From IMG/VR virus record IMGVR_UViG_3300010883_000007, positions 40,453 through 104,452 of that record: 64,000 bases of DNA. One strand, written 5' to 3'. The DNA comes from a virus. The translations under genes and the position numbers were made by a program. The first letter of the stretch is position 1, and each line of letters begins with the position of its first letter. A model generated the notes under the pieces. That model ran no database searches. It was given only the letters and a program-made list of their open reading frames with translations, and had not been told where the DNA came from. This document shows, one piece after another, positions 4,764 to 47,561 of this stretch.

Positions 4764-5336
4764 CTATGTATTGTTGTTCAACACGCCTGCAAAAGCCACA
4801 ACATACGCGTCTGCCATATCATAACACCCGGGCTCCAGAATCTCCTGGCCTCGTCTAGGGCCGCTCTTAAGCACTTTGAGCGGCCACTGATAATCATCAT
4901 CGAGACGATTGGAGACCCAGTCCAGGACCTGCTGCTTGGTTGTTTTCCCACAGACTGCTTCCTTCTGCAGACGGAGACCCACACTCTTTCTTGCAGAGTT
5001 CACATTAAGAAACTCAGGTCTTATCTTAAACGTCGATTCGCTCAAGTATGAGACCACACCGTTAAATCTGGCCAAGGAAGCTAAGGTCTTGGCAGATGAA
5101 AAACCCCTTCGAAAACGCTGTAGATTCTCCTCAACGAACACCCGTTCTACAGGATGTTGGCATTGCAACTCCTGGAGTACGTCTAGAACCCGCTGGGCCT
5201 TGCTGAAGGTATCTTTCCAACCACTTAGGTGTATACACCCCATTTCAACCTTAGATACGCTCTGGTGTTCATCTGTGTATAGAACACACCAGCCAGTCTT
5301 AGAGGTAGAAATATCCAGTCCCAAACAGCATAACAT
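4764..5336 (-). CDS. RuvC-like Holliday junction resolvase (RNase H fold)
   Basis: A protein of 190 residues that begins with the RuvC hallmark LGLDIS, whose Asp at about residue 8 is the first metal ligand. It continues with VFVEENL (Glu near residue 70) and ends with an acidic helix, YDMADAYVVAFA, as in RuvC-family resolvases. The predicted role is cutting branched DNA during recombination and before packaging, the task done in T4 by the unrelated endonuclease VII. The ATG at 5336 overlaps the stop of the upstream virion gene by one base (TGATG). A TTG one codon upstream is also open but less likely. The gene marks the switch from structural genes to DNA metabolism, so it is probably expressed with the late transcript unless an internal promoter exists. 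Confidence 0.82.
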   Translation of the reverse strand: MLCCLGLDISTSKTGWCVLYTDEHQSVSKVEMGCIHLSGWKDTFSKAQRVLDVLQELQCQHPVERVFVEENLQRFRRGFSSAKTLASLARFNGVVSYLSESTFKIRPEFLNVNSARKSVGLRLQKEAVCGKTTKQQVLDWVSNRLDDDYQWPLKVLKSGPRRGQEILEPGCYDMADAYVVAFAGVLNNNT

Positions 5337-8300
5337 CAATAATCGATCCTCAACCTAAAGAGATAACCATCTGAGTCCCTCTTCACAATGGGTTGGGCCA
5401 AGTTGGCCCTCCCTATTATATTAAAACTCTCATCGTGAAGATTTACACTTGTAATGTAATTAAATTGGGACGCTGTCTCATTGGCATAGTCTGTGGGCTT
5501 AAGCGCTTTAAACGTCGGATTGGAGGAGGAATTGACAGATCCCTTGGGACAGGGCACGTTTATCTCCAGAACGTGCACGTTGTGCTCGCCTTCGAAACTG
5601 GTCGTCCACTCATCAGCTCCGAAGATGGGGATGTTCGGTGTCTTCACAACAACAATACCCTCCTCGTAGATGATATTGCCCACAGCGTTCCACGTGGCGT
5701 GCTTCGATAGGGAATCTGCCCGATAGAGGCCTCCGTGTCCGTCATCCCTGAGGGTCACTGCTAAAACACCCCCAGATCCGGTTACACTAGTGTCAGTTAC
5801 CTGAAACGATCCGCGCCTAATCTGATTCCCATAAAAGAGGTTCGACACATCAAAGAATGCCACCTGATTTGAGGAGGGATCCTTCGTCCTATTCAGGATC
5901 GTCAGGATACCAGAGTTGGCTACCCCCGGATCCTCGGGTGGAGCACCCTCCAGCGAATTGGAAATGGAAACGTCGGTGTTATCCTTTCCTCCCGTGAATG
6001 CGGTCACTGTCCTATACAGGTTTGTGAGGTTGTGAGCTATAGCAGTATTCCCTATAGTCCCCACTGCCCGCTGATTGAGGGTTACCACTCCGGCGTAATC
6101 ATCGGTGTCGGTGGCATCTCTGCTGGCCAGGATTAGTCCTGCGTGTCCGGTGGATCCGTTGACAGCAGATACAAAATTGTCGTAAACAGTATCAGCATCA
6201 GAGCTGTTGGCATTGACTAACACCTTACCCCCCTGGACATCACCGGTGACAGACTCGACCTCGTACACGAACCGATAGACCTTCGTCACTCTGTCATATG
6301 TGTTTGTCACCGCGTTCTTTCGTAATCCCGTTAGACGTATAGTTGCCTGATCAGCTGTCTTGGTTGGTGTGTAGATAATCTCTGCAGAGGCAGCCTGAGT
6401 TCCTATTCCCTGCCTTCCGCGGTTCTCGCTGGTGATATCGATTAACCCCTCCGGCAGGGATGCAGTGCTTACCATGTTCGAGAGGTTGATGAGACCGTAG
6501 TCAACATTTCCAGCGTCATTGACAAATCGATCGATCAGTGAACCGGATACCGGAACTTCGGCCCGGGTGCCGGACTTGAGAAGACCGAATGATGGACTGA
6601 ACCTTCCGTTGTCACACGGAAGGACTGTGAGATTTCTCTTTCTCAGGGAAGCATTTCGGTAGAGCCACAGGTTACACAGCTCAGCCGTGTTGGTGGTCAC
6701 ATCAATTGTCGATCCTGTTAGATTGAAGAGACGGGGATAAAGACCGTTAACAAACTCTCGGGTGAAGTTTGGAAGGTTCAACATGTGACCGCCGACGCCG
6801 AATGACAGGGCAACGTTGAAGGGGTCATCTGTGGTTGATCGAACTGTCTGGAACGGCGTCTGCATCACCTCCCGCTCCTTGGTCTCCTTCACAAAGAAAG
6901 GGGGCACGTAGAAGATCAGGTCAGTCGGAAGGGGATCAGGGCCCGACTGGGCAGACAGGGCAATCTGTTGCAGAGAGTGGTAGGTATTGAATATCTTGAG
7001 ATCGTGGATCTCAGCCCTCAACGGGTGCGAGAACCTCACCTTGTGTTCTGCTATATCATTGTGTGTGGCATCCACATTGGACATGTCGTACGAGTCATTC
7101 GTGAACATGCTGGTAACGCCCTCACGGTGGGCAGCATTAGCGTTGAAGAACTGTGCCACAACTCCCGAGCCATCCAGGGTACCATTGTTGGGACCGTCGT
7201 AGAAATTACCCACAAAGACAGCGTCCGGATCACCAATCGGAGGTTCGAAAGCCTGGGGCATCACTGAAGCTGATGGTATTAAAAATGTCGCATCCTCCTT
7301 GCCGTCAATCACGAACGATCCCGTGCCGCTATTGACTGAGGCTCCCCACCGAATGGCGACATGATGCCAGTGATTCCTCATGAGCGCGTTGTCCTTCGAG
7401 AAGAACACAAGGTCGCTGGGAACTTCCTGGGTGCTACTGCCGAGAGTTGGAAAGGGCTGGCTCACATTATTAGACGTGACCGCAGTGTTCCTGGGGGATG
7501 TCTCAGCGCTGTTGCTTAGCTGCAACATTATCCTGAATCCATCAGTCTTGCCGTTAATATCCTTCGACGAGCCCGAAATCAGGCTCACTGCGTACGAGGA
7601 AGACATGTGAATGATCGTGCCCGGATGATACACTGTTCTTCCAGGCTCAGTGCCACCGGTAAATGTAGACGGAACGTTAACACTAGTACTTGCGTTCCAT
7701 GCCGCGGCGTTGTCTAGGGTAATTGCAGTATTACCCGCACTTGTTTTGACAGCACCTTGTGTGAGTAAGACTACTCCCGCAGAGGGATTTGTAGCTACTA
7801 TATCCAGGGATGATTGTGCATTAATCTTTGCAGCAAGATCTGCAGCAGTTCCCGTACCGCCGCCGCCGGCGGCAGCAATTCCACTTACAGCAATATCTCC
7901 GAGTCCCCCAGTGAAAGTTGAGGGGACATTTACACTGCACACGCTGTTCCAGTGAGCAGCGTCATTTACAGTGATTGTAGTATTACCACTTCTACCAGTA
8001 GTTGAACCTTGGGTAATGGTTATTGCAGCAGTAGATGCTGATGCTGTCATATCTAGCGCAGACTGAGCATTAATCTTTGCAGCAAGATCTGCAGCGGTTC
8101 CTGTGGCGCCGCCACCTGCAGCATAGATTCCGTTGAGTGCAATATTGCCTGCAGAGACACCGTTGTTCTCGTTATCAACTTCAAACGTAACTGAGGTTCC
8201 ATCACCATCAATCAAATTGATTGTACTGCCTTCGTTAGGTTTGTCAGTTAGCGTAAAGGTGGCTGCTGGTGGTTTAAGACCATTATTCTCGTTGTCTATT

Positions 8301-9019
8301 TCAAAAGCAACCGAAGTTCCATCGCTGTCTAGCAAGGTGACAGTGGACTCTTCAGTAGGCTTATCTGAGAACGTGAATGTTGCGGTAGAAGAGAATTTCG
8401 AGTCGTTCGGTTCAGACGAATACTTCGGATTGATATAGAAATCGAACGTGAACTCCTTGTGGGGTGAGTACATGAAGTTGTCGACCTCATTGGTCTCCCC
8501 GGAAGAAGTGGCTGCCGGGTATATCATCACAGATCCCGTGGGAGTTGTGTCGGACGTGAAGAAGTGCAGGGTGTGGTAGTTGGGATACGCCCACTGCAAG
8601 CTTGGGTACGTGCTCCGGTACGTGGGAAAGAGGACCTTCCTCACAACATTCTTACGAAGAGTGTTGCTGGTCAACTTGAAGGAGGGCTCGAATCGAATGA
8701 CTTCCACCTTCTTCTGGCGTGCGGGTGAGGCGGAGGAGGAGTTGACTGTCTCTAGATACTGACTTAGATTACCAGAAATATCAGATGAGCCTCGGGAATC
8801 CCTTACTGTCTGGACCCTCAGTTCCTCAATATCAGCTGTTCCCCAGCTATCACCACCGTAGTCCTCGAGGGGTTGTGCCTCCTTCTCAATAGTCGAGGCA
8901 CGAGAGAAGACTTTAACTGACCCTGTCAGTCCTGAGGAAGATGATGTGAATGTCCGGCGGGGGTTGGTTGTGAGAGTAAATCGTTCAAGATTCTCTATTG
9001 GTATTGGTATAATTGCCAT
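5336..9019 (-). CDS. Large virion protein: LamG-like domain interrupted by FTGG modules
   Basis: A protein of 1227 residues, probably a tail or baseplate appendage. Residues about 125-430 resemble a LamG/concanavalin jelly roll (FTFDFYINPKY, then GTIIHMSSSYAVSLISGSS), but the two halves are separated by about 250 residues of FTGG modules (7652-8395). A third module lies at 5985-6395 and ends AFTGGKDN. The last 120 residues (VGNIIYEEGIVVVKTPN, NVPCPKGS, SNPTF, then a final LFRLRIDY) match the C-terminal end of the next gene upstream, 9058-10338, so the two proteins share a terminal module. No signal peptide or membrane segment is visible. Its position among virion genes and the carbohydrate-binding type of fold suggest contact with host glycans; this is inference. 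Confidence 0.8.
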   Translation of the reverse strand: MAIIPIPIENLERFTLTTNPRRTFTSSSSGLTGSVKVFSRASTIEKEAQPLEDYGGDSWGTADIEELRVQTVRDSRGSSDISGNLSQYLETVNSSSASPARQKKVEVIRFEPSFKLTSNTLRKNVVRKVLFPTYRSTYPSLQWAYPNYHTLHFFTSDTTPTGSVMIYPAATSSGETNEVDNFMYSPHKEFTFDFYINPKYSSEPNDSKFSSTATFTFSDKPTEESTVTLLDSDGTSVAFEIDNENNGLKPPAATFTLTDKPNEGSTINLIDGDGTSVTFEVDNENNGVSAGNIALNGIYAAGGGATGTAADLAAKINAQSALDMTASASTAAITITQGSTTGRSGNTTITVNDAAHWNSVCSVNVPSTFTGGLGDIAVSGIAAAGGGGTGTAADLAAKINAQSSLDIVATNPSAGVVLLTQGAVKTSAGNTAITLDNAAAWNASTSVNVPSTFTGGTEPGRTVYHPGTIIHMSSSYAVSLISGSSKDINGKTDGFRIMLQLSNSAETSPRNTAVTSNNVSQPFPTLGSSTQEVPSDLVFFSKDNALMRNHWHHVAIRWGASVNSGTGSFVIDGKEDATFLIPSASVMPQAFEPPIGDPDAVFVGNFYDGPNNGTLDGSGVVAQFFNANAAHREGVTSMFTNDSYDMSNVDATHNDIAEHKVRFSHPLRAEIHDLKIFNTYHSLQQIALSAQSGPDPLPTDLIFYVPPFFVKETKEREVMQTPFQTVRSTTDDPFNVALSFGVGGHMLNLPNFTREFVNGLYPRLFNLTGSTIDVTTNTAELCNLWLYRNASLRKRNLTVLPCDNGRFSPSFGLLKSGTRAEVPVSGSLIDRFVNDAGNVDYGLINLSNMVSTASLPEGLIDITSENRGRQGIGTQAASAEIIYTPTKTADQATIRLTGLRKNAVTNTYDRVTKVYRFVYEVESVTGDVQGGKVLVNANSSDADTVYDNFVSAVNGSTGHAGLILASRDATDTDDYAGVVTLNQRAVGTIGNTAIAHNLTNLYRTVTAFTGGKDNTDVSISNSLEGAPPEDPGVANSGILTILNRTKDPSSNQVAFFDVSNLFYGNQIRRGSFQVTDTSVTGSGGVLAVTLRDDGHGGLYRADSLSKHATWNAVGNIIYEEGIVVVKTPNIPIFGADEWTTSFEGEHNVHVLEINVPCPKGSVNSSSNPTFKALKPTDYANETASQFNYITSVNLHDESFNIIGRANLAQPIVKRDSDGYLFRLRIDY
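5985..6395 (-). repeat. FTGG module, divergent copy in the 1227-residue virion protein
   Basis: A module of about 135 residues, boundaries approximate. It begins ASAEIIYTPTKTADQATIRLTG and shows the family pattern in order: a Y-x-F strand pair, an alpha-helix ending in STGHAGL, a VTLNQ strand, GNTAI, then LTN and the closing FTGG. It is diverged from the other copies in this gene, which suggests an older insertion. Confidence 0.6.
7652..8395 (-). repeat. Nested pair of FTGG modules
   Basis: Read in the coding direction: a module begins at about 8395 (STATFTFSDKP), runs to DNENNGLKP, is broken by a complete second module (about 8268 to 7904, AATFTLTDKP to the first FTGG), and resumes with GDIAVSGIAAAGGG to its own FTGG at 7652. 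The split falls at the same point where the intact copy reads DNENNGV then GNIALNG, so the inner copy sits inside the outer one. A 29-base stretch is identical between them (7818-7846 and 8067-8095). Confidence 0.75.
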
Positions 9020-22048: not shown

Positions 22049-25000
22049 CTACTCAAATGTCAGCATAACACTGGTTCCTGAGGCGTCGTCAGGGTTAGTC
22101 GATCGATCCCGGGTTAGTCCATCAAAATACGGAAGTGAGGAGGTGCAGAAAACATCTAAGTTCTGACTGTGTGTGGATTCCGGATCTACGTTAACAGCTC
22201 GAGCGCCCTCATCGTCGGGTCGAGAAGTGAATGTTACACTAACAGGACCTGACTCTACACCGTCTTCAGTAAAGAAGCGAGTAAATCTACGGGCCTCGAG
22301 GAGATCTCTCACTTGACCGAACTTATTGTGGCGATACACAGCAGAAGAGTACATGGGTCGAATATTGGCCACTCCATACTTGAAACCTCTCAATATAACT
22401 TCAGATCCAACACCTATGTGCATACCCCCAGTCACATGGGTCGAAATATCGCGGTTAACCGCTGTCTGGACTGTTGTATAGCCCACGGGTTCTTTAGTTT
22501 TCTCCCTCTCGCTATACCAATAACGATAGTTGTTGTTAGCGGTGTTCCACGTGTAAGAACCCACTGGAGGAGCAATATAAGACTTACCATTGTGGGTGCC
22601 ACCGTCGCGCTGCGCTAGGTACTGGTCGATGTAGTAGACAAATTTGGAGTCCGACGAGTGCGGATACCCCCACGTGATCTGGACAGTAGTTACTGTTGAT
22701 ACACCGGATCTCACAAAGGATCCTGAGACAGGAATGGTCGCATTGCGATCCACAAGAATCCTCTGCCACTCAGTTCCGTCTCCCAGTAACCCTCCGCCAG
22801 TGAAGGATGTTGCTGTAATATTAGTCACAGTCGATGTGATTGTCGTGTTACTCTGACTACCCCCAACCTTCTGAGTTAGGGACATAGAGCCTTCTCCGTT
22901 GGCTGAGGGAGCTGTCCCCACAGCAATTACAGAGTCTGCGGTGTTGGCATTGTGCCCGTTGGTGTGATTGATTGCAGTCTTTAGCAGGGTTAAATAATCT
23001 CCCTGGTCCATGGCGCCAAGATCTGTTCTTATTGCAATACCTCCCACAGCAGCATCACCCTCAGATAGGGTGAATCCGTCGCCGAAGTCACCCACTGCAA
23101 GAACATCTCCTGTTACTATTGAGTTACCCTTTCCACTTGGTCCGATGCCAATAAGCACATACTTCTTTGTTACTCCAGCAGACGAGGTGATAGTGACTGT
23201 CTGTAGCTCGTTTGCAGACGTAAATGAGTTGAGATCGCCGTCTGCACAACCCAGGGATCCGGCTGCCCTGGAGCTATTGGGATGATCAGATGAGATCGTC
23301 ATTTGAGTGTCTGAGGAGATTGCAGTGACTATTGCAAATGTGCTTGATCCCAGCTCGCCGTACTGACTATGCGTAAAGTTAGATGCAGTAATATTCTGTG
23401 CATTAGCATCGACGGTAATAGCTGTGTTCATGGATCCTGAGGCGCCGGCGACCTGCTGATACAGCGCAAGTGTGTCTGTACCGGCGATGGCGTAAATATT
23501 AGAGACTCCATGCCCGTTGGCAGAATCTATACACGTCTTGAGCGAGGCAACTGCTGTCGCAAGACCAGATGCATTATTGAACACAAGAGGAGCGCTATTA
23601 TCAGACCAGATTGTCGCAGTTAAGTTAGTCACATCGTCGGGGGGTATAAAACCAGAACCTCCAGTGCCGACGGTCGCTTGGGCTAGTGTCATCGTGTTGC
23701 CTGATATCGAACAGGTAATCTTGGGGTTGTGGCCATTCTCGTGGTCAATGGCAGTCTTTAGCTGGGTTAAATAATCCCCCTGTGTAGACAGACCACCGCC
23801 CGTCAGGTTAATTGCAACAGCAACTCCACCTATGGCCAGATCATCATTTCCATAGCCTGATACTAACTTGTTACTTCCATAATCAGACCCTGCTGCCAAC
23901 ACATCACCGGTGGCCACCGAGGTTGCCGCGTCATCCACTAATACATACCGCTTGGACGTGCCATCAGTTGAGACAAGTGTAATTGCCTGAAGTTCAGACA
24001 TACCTGATGCTGCAGCTGCATTCGTAACTGTCACATCACATGAAGCCACTGTTGTTGAGCCAGTGCCGGCGGGAGAGAGGTTCTCGGCAGTACCTGCCCT
24101 ATAGTACTTTACTGTTGCCGCTGTATCGATGATGGCTATCGTGTCACCGGTAATAGGGCCAACTCCTCCAAACTGAATTGCGGCAGAAGATCTGGGTCCG
24201 TGTGTGCCAGTGCCCCCTTCTGGAGGGTTCGATCCACTCAACGCGATACGATCTCCTACCTTTATCTCTTTGGTAAACTTTGTGTTGATCCCAATAATCG
24301 TATCTGATTGATTGGTACTTGTGTGACCCTTAACGTGTATGGGTTCTGCATTCTTGTGTTGAAAGGTCTTAAATGCGGGCATACCAAAAAAGCCATCGCC
24401 AAAACCATAGTATAAGGAGTTGAGCATGGTTATCCCATCTATCTCATTAAATGTGAGATCACCGCCTCGTGGCCCTATTAGAGCGAGACCTGCGTGAGAG
24501 ACTGACTCTGTCACAGAGGATGAGAGTTCAGAGTATATGGGTCGACTTCGGCCGTCGCCTAAGCTGGCCACTGGAGCACCGCGCTGCCCGTCCACATCAG
24601 TCATGTCAATATCTTTAGTTCTCAAGAGATAGGACTGTAACCCTAACGAGCTCAGGAAAGTCTTAGAGCCTGAGATTGCTATGTGACTTATGGCGCCGGC
24701 GCGTATCACTTTACCCGTAGAGCCTGTGACCACATTAAAGGTTTTGTTACCCTTCCGCTCTGCCGCTAGACGTTTCACCTTCGAGTACTTTGGCTCAAAG
24801 GGAAATGAGAATGGAAGATCCCTGTCAAATATTTTATTCGGGCCGTCAATTGACGATCGAGGCTCAGATATTACTAAAACGTTAGCTTTGGGATCTAGCA
24901 TTCCCGCGTTGGGTGTTAAGCTAAGGCCAAAAGATATCTCTGTGCCTGCGTCATCAAAGAACTTTGAGTCGACAATGGCCTCGACTTTGAGACTCCTACC

Positions 25001-28000
25001 ATCAAATAGGGAGTCATTGTTGATGTCTAATATACCAGCAATTGATGGAAGCAGGGTATCATAGTATCGCTCCCGGTGGTCGACCAACTTGAGGCCACGA
25101 AGGAAAGAACCGGTAACGCCTGCTGTTCCCTCAGACACCCTTCCAATCACCTTTCGGTGCACACCCTTATTCTCAAGGAGATAAGACTCACTTCCGGATG
25201 TGGGAAGGGAACCTGTCATCATGTGACCAGCAATCACATTTTCCAGATAAGAACCCGAGTAGGCAAAGGATGGCTCTGTGTCATACTGATCATACACGTC
25301 TGTGCCCAGAAGAAGCGTCTCGTGTATTGCCTCAGAAGTCAGGGGCTGATTACTTGACGGTGTAATCTCCTGATCGCCTCGAAGCACAGATCCATACAAC
25401 ACTAACTTTCCAGCCCCAGGGTGCAACTCGAATGCTGGAGCGGCCAAATCTCCGGCGTAATTCAGCGGAGACTGGAATCCAAAGACTAACTTATCTCCCG
25501 GCATTAACATGTAGGGGGAGGTCACTCTGTCTGTTTTTGGCGCCTCTAGTCTGAACGTGTCTTGGTAGGCATCTACACTATACGCACGCTCGAATCCGCT
25601 AAACTCTCCGCCTCGAATGGCGCGTCCCGTGGGTATACCCAGACCGTTACGAGAGCCATTGATGAACCTGATAAGCAACGAGTCGTTGTCAGTGTCAGGT
25701 GTGGTGTCATTGAGTCCGGGGATTTCTATGTAATTCCCGCCCAGATCCCATGCTGAAGATCCTGGAGCTAATGCGGGAGCCCGAACTGGGGCAGCAAGTG
25801 TTAGTCGCTGGTGGGCCCAGGGAGAGGCAGTGTCAACAACAAGATCACAAAATGATCGAAGGTCTTCAACATACTTCTCAAACACTGTGGGATCATTCAC
25901 ATTTTTATCGGTGGTGAAGGTTCCTATCGTGGAAAATGTGACCAGGTCCCTTACAGTTCCCACCTCATCGTACTTGACAGGAATAATCTTTCGAATGGTC
26001 TGGGCTGTGTTGTCACCTATTCCTCCTGCGTCGCGGCCATCGGCAAAAGTGTTGAAGAGTCTGTTACTATAGAAGTCTGTTCCGTGTACAGAGGCAGCTG
26101 TTAGCCCGTTAGTCACTTGTCTGTTTCCCGAGGATCCATCTGCCAGCTGTGTCAACCTGAGAATGCCGCCGGCTCGACTTACAAGAAGCTTCCCATAGTG
26201 ACCGCTGTCGTTCTCAATACACTTCTGAAGTTGTAGAGCGATCTGGGCCGAGGTTCCTGTGCATGCAAACTCCATCTTAGAATGTGCAAAATTCGTATTA
26301 TTAGCTGCATAATACACTTTGGTTGTGTTGTCTGTCGACGTCAGTGTGACTGTCTCGCCGACAACAGGAACTTGGGCGTTGGTGTGTGACAGCTGTGAAA
26401 TATAACTCGAGGTAATAGACACTGCTGTTGTGTGTGCTTCCCCCGGTGTTAGGATTATTAGCTGGGCCCCGTTCGCCTGGGCCGGCACATCGCTCACCAG
26501 AAGCTTTCCGTTGTGACCGTTGGCATGCTCGATGGCAGCCTTGAGCTGGACCAGGAAGGCATTCTGTGTTGCTGGGGTTCCCGTTAAATCAATAGTCACA
26601 GCGGTACCGGATTGACTGGCGGTGGAGCCTCCCCCCACATCTGTTACACCACTGGTCACCACATCGCCGGTTGCGACTGCCGATGTGGCATCGTCCACGA
26701 TAATATAACTTTTGTTAATGCCGGCGGCTGAGATGTAGACACGCTCGTTTTTGGTCATTCCGCTAACTGCATCACCATCTACTACTGTTAGTGTGCTAGT
26801 CCCAAAAGTTATTACAGTTTTAGCCTGAGTCGCTTTGTCAGCGACGATAATCTCTGCATCGTTATTGATTCTTGTTACCCGAGCAGGCCTAGAGAGAAGG
26901 TTCCCCATTAGCTGTATGCTGTCACCCACCCTAAGCTCACTGGTGAACTTTGTTCCCGTTCCGGCAACCACCATTGATCCGGACACAGTCTTCGCAGCAG
27001 TTCCGGTTATGGTGTCATAGTCATACCCCTCACCAGAGCCATAGGCAGAGGAGTGTGGTGAAAGCTGCCACACAGTGGGTATTGTTCCGGAATATGGCAT
27101 CTCAATAGTTTCTTTTCCGGCGCCGGCTTCAGGGTGTTGGTCCCCCAATTTTGTTAAAACTGCTCGATTCTCAATTCCTGGATCTATATTTGCCGGTCTT
27201 TGGTTTAGAATGAAAAATGATATCCCCTCGCCGTACTTGGCCGAGGGTGTAGAGGTTTGTTTGTCCTTGAGTGATGCTGAGAACTCGTACACTATCTTCT
27301 CGACCAAAAACGGCCGGTCGATCAAACTAGATACATCAAAGACCTGTGATCCAGTGGCCGCGAACTTCGGGTGAAAGGGAAAGCCGAATGTATTAGTTGG
27401 CTGAGCGAACCCTGTCTCAATGGGTACCTTCTTGCCCTCAGACTTGAACCCCGGGGCGGAGGCATTGGCGGTGGACGAGGCCTCGGCAAGCTGCCAATGA
27501 CTTTGACCAAACCCAACCATCACAGTGTCTAACAGATTTCTTAATCGTGCACGATCCTCAGAGAGACCACCTCGTTGAGATTCGGGTATATGAGTATCCG
27601 GCTCCGGCCATGGCTTGTGTGAACCTACCCTCTCCCACTTCTTCTCATCAAAGTTGAAGTACACCATTGGGCCGGAGTCGGTCTGCCCCCCAGACTGTGC
27701 GTTCTTTGCAGTGTATTTTAATGATGTGGATAGAATTTTTGTCGAGGGCGTCAGGTCGATCTCTAGCCTGTGCTTGTCCCACAGTGGGGCAGATAGACCC
27801 GGGCCCACTATCGTTGGGTCAGATCCCGTCGAGTAGAAGGATCCACGAAGGGAGGGGTCTACAGTAAAGTTCGAATCCCATGTTAGGTCCGGATCATCAC
27901 CCTTCTTCGACCCAGAAACACGGTCAGAAGACATCACCGGTGTGTGACCAAACTGTGCAAAGAGATTAACCTCCCGATACGGCTCTAAATTCTGGGGATT

Positions 28001-31000
28001 TTCGCTTTTTCTGCGAGGATCATACGAGCTCCTGTGGGATCGTCCCGGTCCAAAGAGAGTAGTTGTGGTGTTGGGTGTTGAGAACGGTATACCGGTGTGA
28101 CCCCGGGGAAGGTTAAATGGAAAGTGGAGACCGTCTGTTGATCCCGTTAGAATTCCGAAGCTTCCACCACTGAAACCCAACGACTCCTTCCCAGGATCCC
28201 TTATAAGGTCCCCTCGGCCTCCCTCGATTCCCACCACACCTGGATCCAACTGTCTCCACTTGTGAGACCTTTGACCCACCTCGATCGTTCCGGTGACATT
28301 AGTCATAACGATTCGAGTGTTGCCCGAGGTTCCAGGTCGCATCTGAGTCAGATTGACTGTCTTATTCTGTGTCTCTGCATATATTCCCAGCGTGCCTGTC
28401 AGTTCGTTCACCTTCCTGGCAAACTCGGCCGCGGTCTGCTGGGGGGAGGAATACAGCAGGACGGGCACCTGGCTTGGCTTTCCACCTCTAAATTTGTGCG
28501 AGTAGATGGTACCGTAGACGTCTCTGTTTGATCCCAGCGAACCATCTGGGTGAGTAAAGTTAATCACGGTGTTACCGTAGTCACCAAACACATCCAGTGT
28601 TACCTGAGTTAGGCTGACGTTAGCGCGGGCTGCTGAGGCTGCTATCTTGCCAGCATGACCGGCGGCGGCGTTGATACATGCTATCAAGCTAGTGGCCAGG
28701 GCAGTTCTGGTTGCGCCGGCGAAAGTGGACCCTGTAGTTAACAATTGGGAGGAGGACTTTGTGTACGTCCGGCCAGTCCCATCAGTTGAGAAAATTGTAA
28801 TCGTCGTGTTATTATCGGGCACACTGCGAAAGAAGATTCGACCAAACGCGAGGCTCGCACTACGTACTGAGAGCTCGTACTTTGAATTCGCGACGAGGAC
28901 GAACTCTTTCACCCCTGCCGGAGAGGCATCAAGGCCCTGTGAGCCTGTTAGGGCCAATCTTCCCCATGCCATTCCTCGTTTGCTCTGGAGGAATTTTATA
29001 TTGGCTGTCGCGTAGCCAGAGAGAAACTCTGGAGTGTCACTGTCATCAAATGATGTGGTATACCTTCCTGTGAATCCTCGGGAGGTTACCAAGCGTGATG
29101 TTGTGGGATAAGCTCCGAGCTGATTGTCCCTATCTCTAATCTCCACACGCGGGGGGAGGCCGATAAAGCCTGACTGCTTCTTATACTGGCGGACACCCTT
29201 GAGTCCGGCGTAGTAGAGGGCACGTACGTCCTCAGTACTGAGCTGCTTGGACCACACAGCAGGCTCGAACATCTCACCGTTGAGAGAATCAGAATTAGAC
29301 GAGCCATCTCCTCGAAGATGGCCCAGGATGAAGTCTAACCCCTGGTTGGTGCCTCCCACAAAATTAGCTGCAGTGGCGTTCGTCGCGTTATCGGTTATTG
29401 TTTTGTTCCCGGTCGGGCCTGGTACCGCCTGGGTTAGGGTCAGTTTTCCGGCACCATCGTTGTGGACGTGTATCTTTACACTGCCTCCAGTAAAATTAGC
29501 CACAGTTACATTGGTGGCATCGCCTGTAACTACGGTGTTTCCACTGCTGCCAGCCACTGACTGGGTTAGTGTGATCGCCTGATTGCCGTCGGCCTGGGAC
29601 GGAACAGATCCCACCGCAATCTTGCCGTTGTGGCCGGCTGCGTGCTCAATTGCGGCCTTGAGCTGGACCAGATACGCATTCTGTGTGTGCGCTGGCAGAT
29701 TGATTGCAACAGCAATTCCGCCGATGGCTGTGTGACCTGCTGCAAGAGTGCTAGCGCCGTAGTCAGATCCCGCCGCTAGCACAACACCTGTTGCCACCGA
29801 TGTTGCGTCCGCGTCCACCAGAACGTACTTCCTGAGTGTCCCATCAGCTGAGGTTATTGTGATCGTCTGCAGCGCCGACATGCCTGATGCTGCGTCCCCG
29901 TCTGTGACTGTTACAGTGGTCGAAGCTTTGATCCCGTGACCGTTGGCTGTTTCGATGCACGCCTTGAGAGAGGTTGCGGCGGCCGCGAGGGTGGCTCCGT
30001 AAAACTTGGGTGGATCCGTCGTGAGATCTTGGGCTGTGGCAGTGGTGTTTGCGTAATATACTTTTGTTGTTCCGTCTGTCGAGATAATTGTGATTGTTCC
30101 GGCGTTGGCAGGCACACCCGTAAAAGTTATAGTGCCCTGGGCACCGTGTGCCGCAGACATTAGAGTGGGAGAGGGCGTTGTGTAGTCAGGTGTTACACCC
30201 GTGCCGCCGGCAATTAGGGAATTATACCTGCCCTCCTGGCCTGCAGTCTTGGTGTATCGATCACCGTTGATGTATATCTTGACTCCGGAGCCTGCGTATG
30301 ATGTTCCGGTGGCGCTGTAGTTATTGACACCGTTCTTCCAGCAGTCAGCAAGAAGGTCAGTTCCTGAAGATCCATCGTAGGTGACTGCAACATGCACCCA
30401 ATCACCTGTTGGGATCTGGGCAGAAACATCATCTGTATAAAATAGAAGTGCCTGTGTAGATAGCGGTCCACTTCGAAGCTCAAACTTAAGGCCAAGCGAG
30501 GAATAATAGAACTTATGACCTGCGGTCTCGCCGGCGGCGATCCCGGCGACACCGGCTACCACGGGAGGCGACAGCCCGAATATACCAAAAGTTGTATCTG
30601 TTGTCTTCAGCCACACCGCAAAGGAGAAGGGTCCGTCAACCACCTTGTGAGGATCCTTACCCGTATCGACAAAGTGAAAGTCCTTGTGGGCCGCGGCACT
30701 GATGTACGAGTCTGAAGATGTGAACCGGCCGGCAAGGACGGGCGGATCAGACTCAACGTGGGATCCGGAGTGGGGTGACACCCGAACATCGTGGCCTGGA
30801 CGTGTGCCCGAGGCAAAGGTTAAGCCGGGGACAGATGTGCTGGTGGGATCGCTGTTGCCTCCCGTGAAGGACGTTGCTGTTACACCGGTGAGACCCACAG
30901 TGACAGTGGTATTACCACTGTGTCCCAGTGTTACCTGAGTCAGGGTTAGTACCCCACTTCCGTTGTCGACCACAGTAATCTTACCATTGTGGCCGCCGGA

Positions 31001-31462
31001 GGCATCTTCTATACATGCCTTAAGCGAGGTGGCAGCGAGTGCTGCAGTGGCCCCATGAAATGTACAGGGATCAGCGCCCAGGTCCTGGGCGGCCGCCTTA
31101 GGATAAATCTTGGTGGTACCGTCAGTGGAGATGATCGTGATTGTCTGCGTGTTGGTTGGCACTCCGGCGAAGGTCACAGTAGCAGTGGCCGCAGCTTGGG
31201 CCCAGGTGTCGAATCCGTGGTGGGGATCGAGTCCACTGTAGGACGCGTGGTGTCCATTTCCGGAGAGATCCCTAATACTTCCACTGCTCATGGGAAGGAA
31301 GGGATCAGAGTGCTTTGTGAATCTCCAGTGTGCAACCAACGAGTCGGCTGCTGTGTAGTGCAGCCGGCCCACGTGAGTGCCACCCGTCATCCCCGCAGAG
31401 ACCTGAAAGTTGGTGTCAAAGCGGGCCCCTGTGATCTTCTTACTTAACTTAACTTTAGCCAT
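22049..31462 (-). CDS. Giant 3137-residue virion protein, LamG-like core invaded by nested FTGG modules
   Basis: The longest gene in the window. It begins with a LamG-like jelly roll: LVAHWRF near residue 43, DLSGNGHHA, PFSFAVWLK, WVHVAVTYDG, VKIYING and GEMFEPAVWSKQLSTEDV. These strands are spread over residues 40 to about 760, because one FTGG module (30858-31192) and one nested pair (29352-30140) interrupt the fold. Another module lies at about 28558-28850, another nested pair at 26045-26820, a third nested pair at 23364-24190 and a single copy at 22795-23265. Between them are virion domains (for example VFDVSSLIDRPFLVEKI) and a smaller twice-used motif (GTKFTSELRVGDSIQL and NTKFTKEIKVGDRIAL), the second interrupted by a module. 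It is probably a long tail or baseplate appendage. No chain-cleaving or enzymatic motif was seen. It starts 3 bases after the 1051-residue gene, which carries the same modules. Confidence 0.85.
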   Translation of the reverse strand: MAKVKLSKKITGARFDTNFQVSAGMTGGTHVGRLHYTAADSLVAHWRFTKHSDPFLPMSSGSIRDLSGNGHHASYSGLDPHHGFDTWAQAAATATVTFAGVPTNTQTITIISTDGTTKIYPKAAAQDLGADPCTFHGATAALAATSLKACIEDASGGHNGKITVVDNGSGVLTLTQVTLGHSGNTTVTVGLTGVTATSFTGGNSDPTSTSVPGLTFASGTRPGHDVRVSPHSGSHVESDPPVLAGRFTSSDSYISAAAHKDFHFVDTGKDPHKVVDGPFSFAVWLKTTDTTFGIFGLSPPVVAGVAGIAAGETAGHKFYYSSLGLKFELRSGPLSTQALLFYTDDVSAQIPTGDWVHVAVTYDGSSGTDLLADCWKNGVNNYSATGTSYAGSGVKIYINGDRYTKTAGQEGRYNSLIAGGTGVTPDYTTPSPTLMSAAHGAQGTITFTGVPANAGTITIISTDGTTKVYYANTTATAQDLTTDPPKFYGATLAAAATSLKACIETANGHGIKASTTVTVTDGDAASGMSALQTITITSADGTLRKYVLVDADATSVATGVVLAAGSDYGASTLAAGHTAIGGIAVAINLPAHTQNAYLVQLKAAIEHAAGHNGKIAVGSVPSQADGNQAITLTQSVAGSSGNTVVTGDATNVTVANFTGGSVKIHVHNDGAGKLTLTQAVPGPTGNKTITDNATNATAANFVGGTNQGLDFILGHLRGDGSSNSDSLNGEMFEPAVWSKQLSTEDVRALYYAGLKGVRQYKKQSGFIGLPPRVEIRDRDNQLGAYPTTSRLVTSRGFTGRYTTSFDDSDTPEFLSGYATANIKFLQSKRGMAWGRLALTGSQGLDASPAGVKEFVLVANSKYELSVRSASLAFGRIFFRSVPDNNTTITIFSTDGTGRTYTKSSSQLLTTGSTFAGATRTALATSLIACINAAAGHAGKIAASAARANVSLTQVTLDVFGDYGNTVINFTHPDGSLGSNRDVYGTIYSHKFRGGKPSQVPVLLYSSPQQTAAEFARKVNELTGTLGIYAETQNKTVNLTQMRPGTSGNTRIVMTNVTGTIEVGQRSHKWRQLDPGVVGIEGGRGDLIRDPGKESLGFSGGSFGILTGSTDGLHFPFNLPRGHTGIPFSTPNTTTTLFGPGRSHRSSYDPRRKSENPQNLEPYREVNLFAQFGHTPVMSSDRVSGSKKGDDPDLTWDSNFTVDPSLRGSFYSTGSDPTIVGPGLSAPLWDKHRLEIDLTPSTKILSTSLKYTAKNAQSGGQTDSGPMVYFNFDEKKWERVGSHKPWPEPDTHIPESQRGGLSEDRARLRNLLDTVMVGFGQSHWQLAEASSTANASAPGFKSEGKKVPIETGFAQPTNTFGFPFHPKFAATGSQVFDVSSLIDRPFLVEKIVYEFSASLKDKQTSTPSAKYGEGISFFILNQRPANIDPGIENRAVLTKLGDQHPEAGAGKETIEMPYSGTIPTVWQLSPHSSAYGSGEGYDYDTITGTAAKTVSGSMVVAGTGTKFTSELRVGDSIQLMGNLLSRPARVTRINNDAEIIVADKATQAKTVITFGTSTLTVVDGDAVSGMTKNERVYISAAGINKSYIIVDDATSAVATGDVVTSGVTDVGGGSTASQSGTAVTIDLTGTPATQNAFLVQLKAAIEHANGHNGKLLVSDVPAQANGAQLIILTPGEAHTTAVSITSSYISQLSHTNAQVPVVGETVTLTSTDNTTKVYYAANNTNFAHSKMEFACTGTSAQIALQLQKCIENDSGHYGKLLVSRAGGILRLTQLADGSSGNRQVTNGLTAASVHGTDFYSNRLFNTFADGRDAGGIGDNTAQTIRKIIPVKYDEVGTVRDLVTFSTIGTFTTDKNVNDPTVFEKYVEDLRSFCDLVVDTASPWAHQRLTLAAPVRAPALAPGSSAWDLGGNYIEIPGLNDTTPDTDNDSLLIRFINGSRNGLGIPTGRAIRGGEFSGFERAYSVDAYQDTFRLEAPKTDRVTSPYMLMPGDKLVFGFQSPLNYAGDLAAPAFELHPGAGKLVLYGSVLRGDQEITPSSNQPLTSEAIHETLLLGTDVYDQYDTEPSFAYSGSYLENVIAGHMMTGSLPTSGSESYLLENKGVHRKVIGRVSEGTAGVTGSFLRGLKLVDHRERYYDTLLPSIAGILDINNDSLFDGRSLKVEAIVDSKFFDDAGTEISFGLSLTPNAGMLDPKANVLVISEPRSSIDGPNKIFDRDLPFSFPFEPKYSKVKRLAAERKGNKTFNVVTGSTGKVIRAGAISHIAISGSKTFLSSLGLQSYLLRTKDIDMTDVDGQRGAPVASLGDGRSRPIYSELSSSVTESVSHAGLALIGPRGGDLTFNEIDGITMLNSLYYGFGDGFFGMPAFKTFQHKNAEPIHVKGHTSTNQSDTIIGINTKFTKEIKVGDRIALSGSNPPEGGTGTHGPRSSAAIQFGGVGPITGDTIAIIDTAATVKYYRAGTAENLSPAGTGSTTVASCDVTVTNAAAASGMSELQAITLVSTDGTSKRYVLVDDAATSVATGDVLAAGSDYGSNKLVSGYGNDDLAIGGVAVAINLTGGGLSTQGDYLTQLKTAIDHENGHNPKITCSISGNTMTLAQATVGTGGSGFIPPDDVTNLTATIWSDNSAPLVFNNASGLATAVASLKTCIDSANGHGVSNIYAIAGTDTLALYQQVAGASGSMNTAITVDANAQNITASNFTHSQYGELGSSTFAIVTAISSDTQMTISSDHPNSSRAAGSLGCADGDLNSFTSANELQTVTITSSAGVTKKYVLIGIGPSGKGNSIVTGDVLAVGDFGDGFTLSEGDAAVGGIAIRTDLGAMDQGDYLTLLKTAINHTNGHNANTADSVIAVGTAPSANGEGSMSLTQKVGGSQSNTTITSTVTNITATSFTGGGLLGDGTEWQRILVDRNATIPVSGSFVRSGVSTVTTVQITWGYPHSSDSKFVYYIDQYLAQRDGGTHNGKSYIAPPVGSYTWNTANNNYRYWYSEREKTKEPVGYTTVQTAVNRDISTHVTGGMHIGVGSEVILRGFKYGVANIRPMYSSAVYRHNKFGQVRDLLEARRFTRFFTEDGVESGPVSVTFTSRPDDEGARAVNVDPESTHSQNLDVFCTSSLPYFDGLTRDRSTNPDDASGTSVMLTFE
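22795..23265 (-). repeat. FTGG module, type B
   Basis: Boundaries approximate. It contains the type B sequence of features: ELQTVTITSSAGVTKKYVLI, VTGDVLAVGDFG, AVGGIAI, a helix YLTLLKTAINHTNGHN, SLTQKVGG, NTTITSTVTNITATSFTGG. It follows a short Asp/Ser-rich linker after the second KFT-VGD motif of the giant protein. Confidence 0.65.
23364..24190 (-). repeat. Nested FTGG modules: type B inside type A
   Basis: The outer type A module begins SAAIQFGGVGPITGDTIAI at about 24190, is interrupted after STTVAS at about 24040, and resumes near 23600 with LATAVASLKTCIDSANGHG to the degenerate end ASNFTHSQ at 23364. The intervening type B copy begins TVTNAAAASGMSELQ. The whole insert splits the second KFT-VGD motif: VGDRIALSGSNPPE before it and AIVTAISSDTQMTIS after it, compared with an uninterrupted copy at about 26840-26950. 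Confidence 0.65.
26045..26820 (-). repeat. Nested FTGG modules: type B near the start of type A
   Basis: An outer strand KTVITFG at about 26820 is followed at once by a type B copy (VVDGDAVSGM through LIILTPGEAHTTAVSIT). The type A body then resumes at about 26370 (NAQVPVVGETVTLTS) and runs to NGLTAASVHG at about 26080. The outer ends have drifted (no FTGG), which suggests an older event than the copies at 29-31 kb. Confidence 0.55.
28558..28850 (-). repeat. FTGG-family module, degenerate type A
   Basis: RIFFRSVPDNNTTITIFSTDGTGRTY, then ALATSLIACINAAAGHAGKIA, VSLTQ and GNTVINF. The closing FTGG is lost. It lies between LASVRSASLAFG-like strands and a GTIYSHKFRGGKPS segment of the giant protein. 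Confidence 0.55.
29352..30140 (-). repeat. Nested FTGG modules, clearest case (type B inside type A)
   Basis: The outer type A copy starts GTITFTGVPANAGTITI at about 30140 and reaches ANGHGIKAS at about 29921. A complete type B copy then follows (TTVTVTDGDAASGM to ANFTGG at 29482). The outer copy resumes with KIHVHNDGAGKLTLTQ and ends FVGG at 29352. An intact type A copy reads straight from GHNGKI to LTLTQ, so the break is inside one structural unit. The pair itself sits between two strands of the LamG-like fold (VKIYINGDRYT before, LNGEMFEPAVW after). Confidence 0.75.
30858..31192 (-). repeat. FTGG module, type A, inside LamG-like fold
   Basis: ATATVTFAGVPTNTQTITI to ATSFTGG, about 112 residues, the cleanest single type A copy. 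It separates DLSGNGHHASYSG from GLTFASGTRPG and the later FSFAVWLK strand of the same LamG-like domain, so it occupies a surface loop of the host fold. Confidence 0.72.
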
Positions 31463-31465
31463 ATT

Positions 31466-34400
31466 CTACTTCTTGAGACCCCCGAATGCTATGGAGTCTG
31501 TGCCCTTATCCATACCAATATACACAAAACCTGCTCCGGCGGAAACATGGTTTCTCTTGAGACGGTCTTGAGCTGAGCCCGTCATGGCTGCCAGAGCAGT
31601 CGTCATTATGCCGTCTGCCAGACCTCCGGACTCACCTCCTGTGAAGGATGTTGCGACAGCATTTGTTAGGTTATCAGTCACAGTGGTGTTTCCTTCAGGA
31701 CCGCCGTCTGCCTGTGTTAGGGTTAACAGAGAGGTTCCGGATGGGTTAACCACAGTTATCTTTCCGTTGTGCCCAAGGGCTGTTTCGATGCACGCCTTGA
31801 GGGATACAGCAGCGGCGATCGGAGTGGCTCCGTAAAACTTGGGTGGATCCGTCGTGAGGTCCTCTGTCGCAGCACTGGTATTTGCGTAATACGCTTTTGA
31901 TGTTCCACTCCTTGAGATGATTGTGACAGTTCCACCATTGGCCGGAATCCGCATATCAACACTAAAATTGGCCACGGTTGAGGTTATAACAGTAGTCCAG
32001 CTGTCTCCGCTGGCCTGGGTTAACGAAAGGACCTGAGCTCCATTCGCCTGGGTTGGGACTGCTCCAACTGTTAGCCTACTACCGTGTCCCTTGGGATGTT
32101 CAATGGCCGCCTTGAGCTGAACCAGGAACTCATTCTGTGTGTCCAGGGAAGATCCGGTCGCCTTAATTGCGACAGCGATATCCCCATCATCCGCTGTTGT
32201 TGCAGAGCCCGTGTCTGACCCATCCTCCAACACAGCTCCCGTAGTAACGGTTGAGAGCTCCTCATCGACGATCCTGTAGACTCTCGTCCTGGGGGTCGTC
32301 GTACCCTTTATCGAGACAATTGTCACCTTCTGCCCCTCAGCCATGCCCGAGGCCGCATCGCCGTCGGCGACCGACACGTTCGCTAGTGCGTCATCACCCA
32401 AGACGGCAGACGGAAACTGGACTGTCGCTGTGGCCTTGATGTCTGTCCGCGTCTGCTCGTCCGTGATGCCCGCTATTCTTATGTACGCGTCCGATCCCTC
32501 TTTAAAGGGCTCGAGCTGATTAGTCCTGGGCGCAAACAGGCCCTGCATTGTGACTGGACCTGTTGATGTTGCGCCGGGGGGGAGTCTTGCTTCGAAGGTC
32601 TCGTCATCCTCCTGGGAATTAAAGGCCTGAAAGGTCGGCTCTAGAAGATCAAGCCCAAAGGTCTCAACTCCGTCGAAGTACATATCCATACCCGTCTCAT
32701 TGGGATCGTACTGCTGATCCATAAGGGTCGACTGCCTGAATATATCCTCTGTACACATATCAGCACGGATGCCGCGCGCGGTGTAGGGCAGCTCAATTGA
32801 GGATCGATCTGCGAGGCCTCTGATTGGAAATACCTCCATCACACCATCCATTAGGCTACGAGCTGATGCATCAACCATCATCTCCGGAACGACCAAGCTG
32901 AGTGGTGGTGTTCGAACAATATCAGCAGCGTTGGTAGTCATTAGGTCGTTGTACTCACTGCCGTCTTGGTAAACGTACAGCGCCTGCCCGAGGTCACGCT
33001 GGTCCCTGGCGTGATTGATTGCCACACCCAGGCCGGAACTTCTGGTGGATGTGTCAAGCTGTGGGAGGGATTTCACACCCCATGCAGGCTCGCGAATGGG
33101 AGAGTTGACCTCTAGAGATATATCAGTTAATGCCCATAGATCGTTCGACCCAGAAGCATGGTTAACTTGTACCCACTTTACACTCCATGGGCCGGGGCCA
33201 TACGGACTTAGTGACTCTGTAACTGATAAAACTGTTCCTGCTGCTAGCCCGTAGTCGCCTCCGCCGATAAAAGATACTACTGAACCACTCGCTAGGGTCT
33301 CAATTATTGTGGTGTTACCTGCGGGCCCGGTTGATGCCTGTGTAAGTGTTAACACACCTGAACTGTTATCAGCCATAGTCACCTTTCCATTGTGCCCAGT
33401 GGCTGCTGCAATACAGGCTGCGAGAGAAGTGGCGGATGCGGCGGCGGTACCGATGGTGGGGACTGGGGGGATTGCTAACAAGTCCTGTGCTGCACCAAAC
33501 GTATACACTCTAGAAGTTTCATCTGTTGAAACAATTGTTACCGCTTCGCCCGTTATAGTTGATCCGGTAAATGTCACAATTGCTGTCGCAGATGTATCTG
33601 CAGTCGCATGAGTCCTTACTGTATTCCAGGATCCGCCCTGACCAGAGAGGTCACCCCTTATCTGAAAGTGTAAATCCTGATCAGCACCGGGAACTCCGCC
33701 AGCAGAGGTCATTCCGGAAATAGCGCCCTCGGGCCCTGAAGACGTGTCGCCTCGAATCACACGATACTTTACAGTTACTTTATCCTGTAAGCTATTTGCC
33801 CTCACACCCCCCAAGCTTCCCGTGACACTCAAAAATCTATCGCCTGTGTCTGATCCCCCTACAAACCCTGAAGATGTCACATTAGTGAGTGAATTCACAA
33901 TTGTCGTATTTCCAGAAGTTCCAACAGCAGCTTGGGTTAGCTCAATCTCAACAGACTCATAATTTACTGTAATGCTGCCATTGTGACCGTTAGCGTGAGC
34001 TATACAATCTGATAAAGATTCTGCTGCACCTTCTTCATCGGTGTTTAAGAACTTTGGTGGATCTGATGTAAGATCTTCGGAGGCGGCGGCGACATATGCT
34101 TTTACCAGGCCTGCGTGGTCAGTTATCTCTATTGTCTCTCCAACTACGGTTGCGCCATCGAAAACAATAATTGCTGTGGCTGCCTTGAGAGGCTGTCCTC
34201 TCATAACCCACCACTTGTTGCCTGTTGTAGTAGCTGTGAGTACTGCCGGTGCGGTACCGGGATGCGTGCTTCCATTCGCCTCAAAAATATCAACGTTTAG
34301 GGTACCAATTGCAGCATCAAACGATCCCGCGGATGTACCGGATGCCGATCGGCTTGAGGACACAGCCATATTGCTCGGCGCGTCTAGATCATTATAGAAT

Positions 34401-34621
34401 CTATACGTCTCCATTCGCTGGCCATCGACAATCTTAACAGGGTCATTGATAGGCTGGGGCTTAAGCCCTATAAATCCGTACAGGTGATCCATTGTTCGGC
34501 AGTTGATTCCCTGCCGATACTGGTCTATTGCTGTGGTTCCGGACAGGGAGGGCGGGTATACCAGGATTGCTTGGCTTCCCTTGGAGTGGGAACCTGACAG
34601 GACTCTCTGTGTTGACGCCAT
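31466..34621 (-). CDS. Virion protein carrying three FTGG module insertions
   Basis: A protein of 1051 residues. The N-terminal 130 residues begin MASTQRVLSGSHSKGSQAILVYPPSLSG, and residues from about 345 to 680 and the C-terminal 50 form a unique virion domain (for example EPTFQAFNSQEDDETFEARLPPGATST, and near the end GAGFVYIGMDKGTDSIAFGGL). Between them sit type A modules at 33858-34185 and 33258-33600 and a nested pair at 31635-32440. Taking these out would leave about 550 residues. No enzyme motif is visible. It lies 3 bases upstream of the giant gene and directly abuts the 1205-residue gene, so all three are translated in sequence and probably form one complex near the baseplate (inference). 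Confidence 0.8.
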   Translation of the reverse strand: MASTQRVLSGSHSKGSQAILVYPPSLSGTTAIDQYRQGINCRTMDHLYGFIGLKPQPINDPVKIVDGQRMETYRFYNDLDAPSNMAVSSSRSASGTSAGSFDAAIGTLNVDIFEANGSTHPGTAPAVLTATTTGNKWWVMRGQPLKAATAIIVFDGATVVGETIEITDHAGLVKAYVAAASEDLTSDPPKFLNTDEEGAAESLSDCIAHANGHNGSITVNYESVEIELTQAAVGTSGNTTIVNSLTNVTSSGFVGGSDTGDRFLSVTGSLGGVRANSLQDKVTVKYRVIRGDTSSGPEGAISGMTSAGGVPGADQDLHFQIRGDLSGQGGSWNTVRTHATADTSATAIVTFTGSTITGEAVTIVSTDETSRVYTFGAAQDLLAIPPVPTIGTAAASATSLAACIAAATGHNGKVTMADNSSGVLTLTQASTGPAGNTTIIETLASGSVVSFIGGGDYGLAAGTVLSVTESLSPYGPGPWSVKWVQVNHASGSNDLWALTDISLEVNSPIREPAWGVKSLPQLDTSTRSSGLGVAINHARDQRDLGQALYVYQDGSEYNDLMTTNAADIVRTPPLSLVVPEMMVDASARSLMDGVMEVFPIRGLADRSSIELPYTARGIRADMCTEDIFRQSTLMDQQYDPNETGMDMYFDGVETFGLDLLEPTFQAFNSQEDDETFEARLPPGATSTGPVTMQGLFAPRTNQLEPFKEGSDAYIRIAGITDEQTRTDIKATATVQFPSAVLGDDALANVSVADGDAASGMAEGQKVTIVSIKGTTTPRTRVYRIVDEELSTVTTGAVLEDGSDTGSATTADDGDIAVAIKATGSSLDTQNEFLVQLKAAIEHPKGHGSRLTVGAVPTQANGAQVLSLTQASGDSWTTVITSTVANFSVDMRIPANGGTVTIISRSGTSKAYYANTSAATEDLTTDPPKFYGATPIAAAVSLKACIETALGHNGKITVVNPSGTSLLTLTQADGGPEGNTTVTDNLTNAVATSFTGGESGGLADGIMTTALAAMTGSAQDRLKRNHVSAGAGFVYIGMDKGTDSIAFGGLKK
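31635..32440 (-). repeat. Nested FTGG modules: type B inside the first strand of type A
   Basis: ATATVQFPS at about 32440 is broken by a type B copy (NVSVADGDAASGMAEGQ to TSTVANFS, about 32410-31960). Type A then resumes MRIPANGGTVTIIS and runs to SFTGG at 31635. Within this copy, 31824-31858 is identical over 35 bases to 29991-30025 in the giant gene, and 31778-31801 is identical over 24 bases to 29945-29968. Confidence 0.72.
33258..33600 (-). repeat. FTGG-family module, type A (ends FIGG)
   Basis: SATAIVTFTGSTITGEAVTIV to VSFIGG, about 114 residues, inserted between the ordinary virion strands WNTVRTHATADT and LAAGTVLSVTESL. Confidence 0.68.
33858..34185 (-). repeat. FTGG-family module, type A (ends FVGG)
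   Basis: ATAIIVFDGATVVGETIEI to SSGFVGG, about 110 residues. The flanking text WWVMRGQPLKA and DRFLSVTGSLGGV reads as one continuous strand region interrupted by the module. Confidence 0.68.
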
Positions 34622-46060: not shown

Positions 46061-46382
46061 TTATGATCTCCTCGAAATCTGATCCGGTTTCTTCGACGGC
46101 CTCTTCGTCCACGGCTGCTAGAGTTCTTGCTATCAAGAGAATCTCATCTCGGCACACCCGGACATCCTGTAGGACTGTCCTAATCTCATTACTATCGTAA
46201 TACAAGGGAATCTGGAGTATCTTACCAATTGATTTATAACGATCATCAAGCACATCCAGTGACCCCTCTATGGCATCTTGCACTGCTAGAATGATAAGAC
46301 CAAACCTAATTGCATAGAAACACGTCACCCCTAGAAGCACTAGTAGTCCAATAATTATGTATGTACTAATATCAAGCATCAT
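46053..46382 (-). CDS. Small membrane-anchored protein, unknown function
   Basis: A protein of 109 residues with one N-terminal membrane helix (YIIIGLLVLLGVTCFYAIRFGLIILAV, residues about 8-34), then a helical soluble part with many Asp, Glu and Arg (DVLDDRYKSIGKILQIP; RTVLQDVRVCRDEILLIARTLAAV) and an acidic tail. It overlaps both neighbours, glycosyltransferase stop by 4 bases (ATGA) and sigma gene start by 8, so it is clearly part of one transcript. I do not know the family. A possible role at the host membrane (for example host takeover or lysis timing) is conjecture. Confidence 0.65.
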   Translation of the reverse strand: MMLDISTYIIIGLLVLLGVTCFYAIRFGLIILAVQDAIEGSLDVLDDRYKSIGKILQIPLYYDSNEIRTVLQDVRVCRDEILLIARTLAAVDEEAVEETGSDFEEIISG

Positions 46383-47560: not shown

Positions 47561-47561
47561 C

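Follow-up and report, generated by a model that had tools for sequence, protein, structure and literature searches.

A D2/D3-like beta domain that appears to nest within a copy of itself in a phage virion protein

Results

The locus and its gene setting

The window, the whole stretch of 64,000 nucleotides analysed here, belongs to a 104-kb IMG/VR virus contig. It carries the gene of P1227 (Table 1), and a baseplate wedge gene of the same cluster lies at 39799-41646. No sheath family match was found for P1227 in PHROGs or Pfam. Its C-terminal domain (residues 1147-1227; window 5339-5581) is common to a neighbouring 426-residue protein and to protein Rm378p128 of Rhodothermus phage RM378. A Nol-like carbamoyltransferase gene (phrog_1601; 58747-60387, minus strand) and glycosyltransferase genes (46379-48815) occupy the same half of the genome and are possible modification genes.

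Table 1. Features in the window, with residue numbers of the encoding protein
Feature	Position	Strand	Remarks
P1227, 1227-residue marine phage virion protein carrying the nest	5336..9019	-	within tail/baseplate/fibre gene cluster; syntenic homologues L066, L067
LamG-like host domain, split by the insert	6950..8494	-	about residues 176-690, limits approximate; PF13385 in L067/L066, alignment
Left host flank FYINPKY	8420..8440	-	residues 194-200
Outer module, first part (H1)	8279..8386	-	residues 212-247; strands 1-3
Inner complete module (H2+T2)	7904..8266	-	residues 252-372
Outer module, second part (T1)	7652..7900	-	residues 374-456
Right host flank GTIIHMSSSYAVSLISGSS	7565..7621	-	residues 467-485
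Second, divergent module in P1227	5987..6391	-	residues 877-1011; also in L066, not in L067
Second self-nest, in a 3137-residue protein (22049-31462)	29351..30142	-	outer 29927-30142 + 29351-29482, inner 29483-29926; divergent subfamilies
Four divergent modules in a 1051-residue protein (31466-34621)	31634..34180	-	iE 2e-9 to 6e-20

One module inside another

The original prediction, made from the letters of the DNA, was that 7652-8395 holds a truncated start, a full copy and a headless copy, best read as one copy carrying another inside. On the minus strand, 8395..7652 is exactly residues 209-456 of the open reading frame at 5336-9019, and the three pieces are as described: searched against its own genome, the inner copy returns itself at 100%, flanked by the truncated start at E 1e-12 and the headless copy at E 7e-25, values that rule out chance similarity. 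The chain reads FYINPKYSSEPNDSKFSS-TATFTFSDKPTEE...DNENNG-LKPP-AATFTLTDKPNEG...DNENNGVSAGNIALNGI...SVNVPSTFTGG-LG-DIAVSGIAAAGGG...SVNVPSTFTGG-TEPGRTVYHP-GTIIHMS, and the module ends are near-constant, [A]TATFTF...FTGG.

With H for the opening ~37 residues of a module and T for its closing ~81, the order in P1227 is H1, H2, T2, T1. H1 (212-247) is 71% identical to H2 in amino acids and 68% in DNA; T1 (376-456) is 64% and 65% identical to T2 (292-372). When profile hits were parsed with a stack, blind to the sites, the stretch ahead of the inner copy covered profile positions 2-39 of the outer module and the stretch behind it 41-122; joined, the two outer parts make exactly one module. The arrangement H1-[H2-T2]-T1 is thus that of a ~120-residue module inserted into another of its kind, at the loop that follows strand 3. 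The same nest is present in a contig from another metagenome (L005, 93% identity) and the same order in more contigs, which rules out an assembly artefact.

Predicted structure of the nest

For the 258-residue nest, given together with 28 relatives, AlphaFold2 returned a confident, symmetric, nested model (pLDDT 85.3, pTM 0.74). The outer copy starts with strands 8-13, 22-26 and 32-37. The inner module then runs through strands 47-53, 62-66, 72-77 and 89-91, helix 100-113, strands 120-125, 128-133 and 144-147, and a last helix, 150-155, after which the outer copy is completed by 172-174, helix 183-196, 203-206, 212-217, 228-231 and helix 234-239. Each of the nine elements of the inner copy has its own counterpart among nine in the outer copy, and H2+T2 and H1+T1 are each predicted to fold as one domain. 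Two of the three levels originally proposed, the module and the inner module, are supported by this pairing and by the complementarity of H1 and T1 in one profile.

Taken alone, the inner stretch (model 44-168) matches single solved domains end to end at Z 7-9, which leaves H1 and T1 for each other; the two would presumably be in contact. Its best match is the sheath of cyanophage A-1(L) (8kee; Z 9.0, 91 residues, rmsd 2.5), and the PhiTE sheath scores Z 8.9. Flagellar proteins come next: FliD D2-D3 (5xlk; Z 8.0, 97 aligned residues, rmsd 3.0), 4nx9 (Z 7.3), 5fhy (Z 7.2) and flagellin outer domains (Z about 7), with the insertion domain of the T7 nozzle (6r21 149-247) at about 6. Rhodobacter phage RcTitan is also represented among the structural matches. 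The module fold is FliD/flagellin D2-D3-like, and at such middling Z this is fold likeness rather than kinship. For a Campylobacter flagellar cap-complex chain (9gsx 419-554, 136 residues), 106 residues align over model 2-254 in an alignment known by its end residues only, a span that would suit an outer module continuing past the inner one. The match list is filled by flagellar chains and phage chains such as sheaths, and the absence of other folds from it is no evidence; in Pfam nothing but chance hits appeared at E<10, none of them to Ig-like phage surface families (Big_2, I-set and similar) beyond chance, and a relation to these is conceivable.

The host domain and its empty site

A scan with the neighbouring 604-residue protein turned up two gene clusters that are, as a whole, distantly related to this one; L066 and L067/L068 are their P1227 homologues. 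Relatives had been predicted that would join FYINPKY to GTIIHMS directly, and the syntenic L067 does so. In L067/L068 (782 residues) the site reads FNFWINPRYAFES-PGTILHFSGA with zero insert, L067 passing from FWINPRYAFES straight into PGTILHFSG, and in L066 a 15-residue linker takes the place of the nest. Laminin_G_3 (PF13385) spans the empty site in L067 (residues 173-302, E 5e-7); the isolated segment scores 30.4 bits and its L066 counterpart 29.9, both above the curated cut-off of 27.6, while P1227 is sub-threshold, its C-terminal half alone reaching 23.4. The match runs across the join in L067, which places the nest within a LamG-like domain and upholds the host-fold level of the prediction. 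The further claim, that the two flanks would otherwise be consecutive strands, draws its support from the alignment to Laminin_G_3 and from the relative with the empty site rather than from a structure: a model of the host domain, for which a jelly-roll beta-sandwich would be expected, reached pLDDT 29 from four sequences, and the host is LamG-like by sequence.

The second module of P1227 is one of several that vary. L066 (1180 residues) has a third divergent module at 636-759, at a site that is empty in P1227 and L067. Because the divergent modules differ among P1227, L066 and L067, the family gains or loses modules at several sites.

Other modules in this genome

The 3137-residue protein, for which no family was found in PHROGs or Pfam, has at least eight module matches. 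In its nest the outer parts score iE 4e-13 and 4e-8 and the inner module 2e-15, and the outer module is broken near profile 71-85. The modules of the 1051-residue protein lie at residues 148-255, 345-446, 759-885 and 892-996; the third stops short of a complete module, lacking the end, and the fourth may be inserted at the third loop. Outside the window, the same genome has a single canonical module (L002, G000:C1:19479-19823) in the N-terminal part of a 1147-residue tail sheath, with a third-position GC of 23% against 56% in the rest of the sheath gene.

The module family in other viruses

Module-alignment searches found the canonical module in 42 virus records, this one and 41 other IMG/VR contigs. 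Its hosts are tail sheaths (by PHROGs and Pfam), a 359-residue protein and several unknown proteins, and the contiguous module occurs as a stand-alone insert in many of its hosts. The 359-residue host adjoins proteins judged by eye to be tail-fibre-like and terminase-like; a search of INPHARED found no empty-site relative of it. GTDB genomes, INPHARED and PLSDB gave no relative of the module at the sensitivity used. Pfam (flagellar models included), PHROGs and PDB sequences gave no relevant match, so that the module falls in no family known to these collections.

Nests of the order H-H-T-T or deeper occur at the same loop in 13 contigs, an unrelated host protein among their carriers. In L028 (IMGVR_UViG_3300009103_001640), residues 135-502 of a 5920-residue open frame read H-H-H-T-T-T, three levels. 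Residues 1478-1973 of a 3452-residue protein in L012 (IMGVR_UViG_3300030419_007734) form a branched nest, A(B(C)D), in which A is split into three (T 1-41, 39-68, 64-81) and B is split once (T 1-63, 64-80), while C and D are complete; the breaks fall at two further module loops. The nested reading of P1227 gains further backing from these cases. In L013, L023, L026 and L092 the outer module is divergent and the inner canonical. By iterated profile and simple stack parser, again blind to the sites, outer modules break at profile 39-41, 78-82 and 103-106, all predicted loops, and resume within about four profile positions, L092 being one fuzzier case. Inner and outer copies in one protein are roughly 50-85% identical. 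Simple tandem repeats with distinct folds, the arrangement named beforehand as speaking against nesting, were not found at the P1227 site; the one direct tandem encountered joins divergent modules of L026.

Composition of the insert

Third-position GC is 34% in the P1227 insert and 59% in the flanking host codons. The best change-point segment, residues 233-465, has a log-likelihood ratio of 28.7 (shuffles at most 10.2), and the shift fits a foreign origin. As proof of recent transfer it is weakened, since after correction for amino-acid make-up the shift (z -3.8) is surpassed elsewhere in this genome, where other segments reach -5.4.

Discussion

The order of the pieces, their complementarity, the empty host site and the recurrence in unrelated proteins can be read directly from sequence, and the nested arrangement itself we regard as very probable indeed. 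An H-H-T-T order could also come from two separate partial duplications, one doubling the head and one the tail, which would merely look nested. A lone double nest could be made in this way, and divergence is similar for head and tail copies. Each case would nevertheless take two matching events, and the H-H-H-T-T-T of L028 four; the outer module of L012 is cut elsewhere, and its pieces still total one module; and partial duplications of one copy cannot give divergent outer modules split around canonical inner ones. We consider this origin highly improbable, and give no more credence to a swapped tandem in which H1 pairs with T2 and H2 with T1. The copies are similar enough for either pairing to be chemically conceivable, but the contiguous inner stretch corresponds end to end to single solved domains, the contiguous module stands alone as an insert in many proteins, and in L013, L023, L026 and L092 it is a complete canonical module within a divergent outer one.

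How the copies moved is a further matter. The near-constant ends, the many unrelated hosts, the self-insertion and the sharp third-position GC shift at the insert would all suit a mobile DNA unit that inserts by a mechanism of its own and prefers copies of itself as targets. An unsystematic look at the junctions that were read noticed no recombinase, endonuclease or target duplication, however; copies from one genome or protein are only 54-84% identical in DNA, and insertion-tolerant loops account for the choice of site. We find such a unit improbable, and it is scarcely less unlikely that the family spreads by repeated insertion into its own loops, with open-ended, tree-like or bracket-grammar architectures such as A(B(C)D), through dedicated or strongly biased DNA insertion in place of chance events sieved by selection. 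Compatible with our main explanation is a history in which a single event made the loop-1 nest, and unrelated host proteins later received the double module as a whole. A single clade of all outer copies is not rejected (AU p 0.40), the signature NEESW...RFEIDN is common to the outer heads of L015, L018 and L028, and independent nest origins, suggested by the first tree, were not upheld by the AU test. Against it, the outer copies are dispersed over the free tree (three changes, of which starred branches force two), with the P1227 outer copy grouping with inner copies of the 359-residue family, and the nests at other loops (L012, L026 and the 3137-residue protein of the window) must be separate events in any case. 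The outer and middle copies of L028 are sisters (100/96). For the loop-1 nest, one origin with transfer of the composite and several origins are both plausible, the single origin being a serious candidate that we would not bet on.

Our preferred explanation, to which we assign a probability of roughly 0.85, is a D2/D3-like beta domain inserted into itself within a LamG-like host. The second copy would sit in the loop between the third strand and the short strand before the helix of the first, and the pair would occupy a surface loop of a LamG-like domain in a phage tail or fibre-region protein. The chain ends of the module are probably close together, which would let it be spliced into loops of many proteins with the host fold unbroken, and the loops of its own fold would be tolerant targets as well. 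New copies could arise by in-gene duplication or by transfer from another phage protein, selection would retain insertions only in tolerant loops, and every insertion would shift one more domain outward. The most likely role of the stack would be that of a spacer of variable length at the surface, or of an adhesive decoration, surrounding the lectin-like LamG domain, as has been proposed in part of the tail-sheath literature for extra sheath domains (PMC9230969), although this assignment of function is tentative and we put it somewhat below even odds.

We are drawn to this family by the questions it may serve. The copies are alike enough for the order of nesting to be read, and together they provide a natural series of empty, single, double and triple sites in which to ask by what route insertions come about, which loops accept them, and how a chain folds if one of its domains is interrupted two or three times. 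The module, as yet unclassified, seems to serve marine phages as a decoration of their sheath, fibre and LamG proteins, and its fold is common to flagellar surface domains.

Comparison with known systems

Domain insertion as such is familiar, and nested insertion of a domain of this kind is known at the level of fold, since Head 2 of FliD is a loop insertion within Head 1 (PMC5072837) and D4 and D5 of Helicobacter pylori FliD resemble D2 and D3 (PMC8306008). The D2/D3 domains of FliD (Head 1/Head 2) and flagellin FliC are alike in fold to our module (5xlk, 4nx9 and 5fhy, above), but no sequence relationship was detected in Pfam or PDB sequences, and the phage copies differ in being roughly 50-85% identical, in reaching three levels and branching, and in occupying unrelated phage proteins. 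The closest fold is that of the extra tail-sheath domains (cyanophage A-1(L), ~91-185; PhiTE), and the module itself is found inside sheaths, here and elsewhere. Beyond the conserved sheath core, large phages carry additional domains of this sort, for which passages of one account suggest adhesion or stability (PMC9230969); in the parts of the sheath literature covered, recursive self-insertion of one family is unreported. The insertion domain of the T7-type nozzle protein gp12 has a similar fold by a weak score, but is a single insertion with no detected sequence similarity to the module. Laminin_G_3 or ConA-like lectin domains provide, by sequence match, the host of the P1227 nest, and differ in that the host domain of P1227 and L005 is interrupted by a nest of ~260 residues. 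No description of a self-nesting family was found in open-access papers. As far as searched, then, a sequence family that nests in itself in phage virion proteins, to three levels and with branching, and for which empty-site relatives exist, is new.
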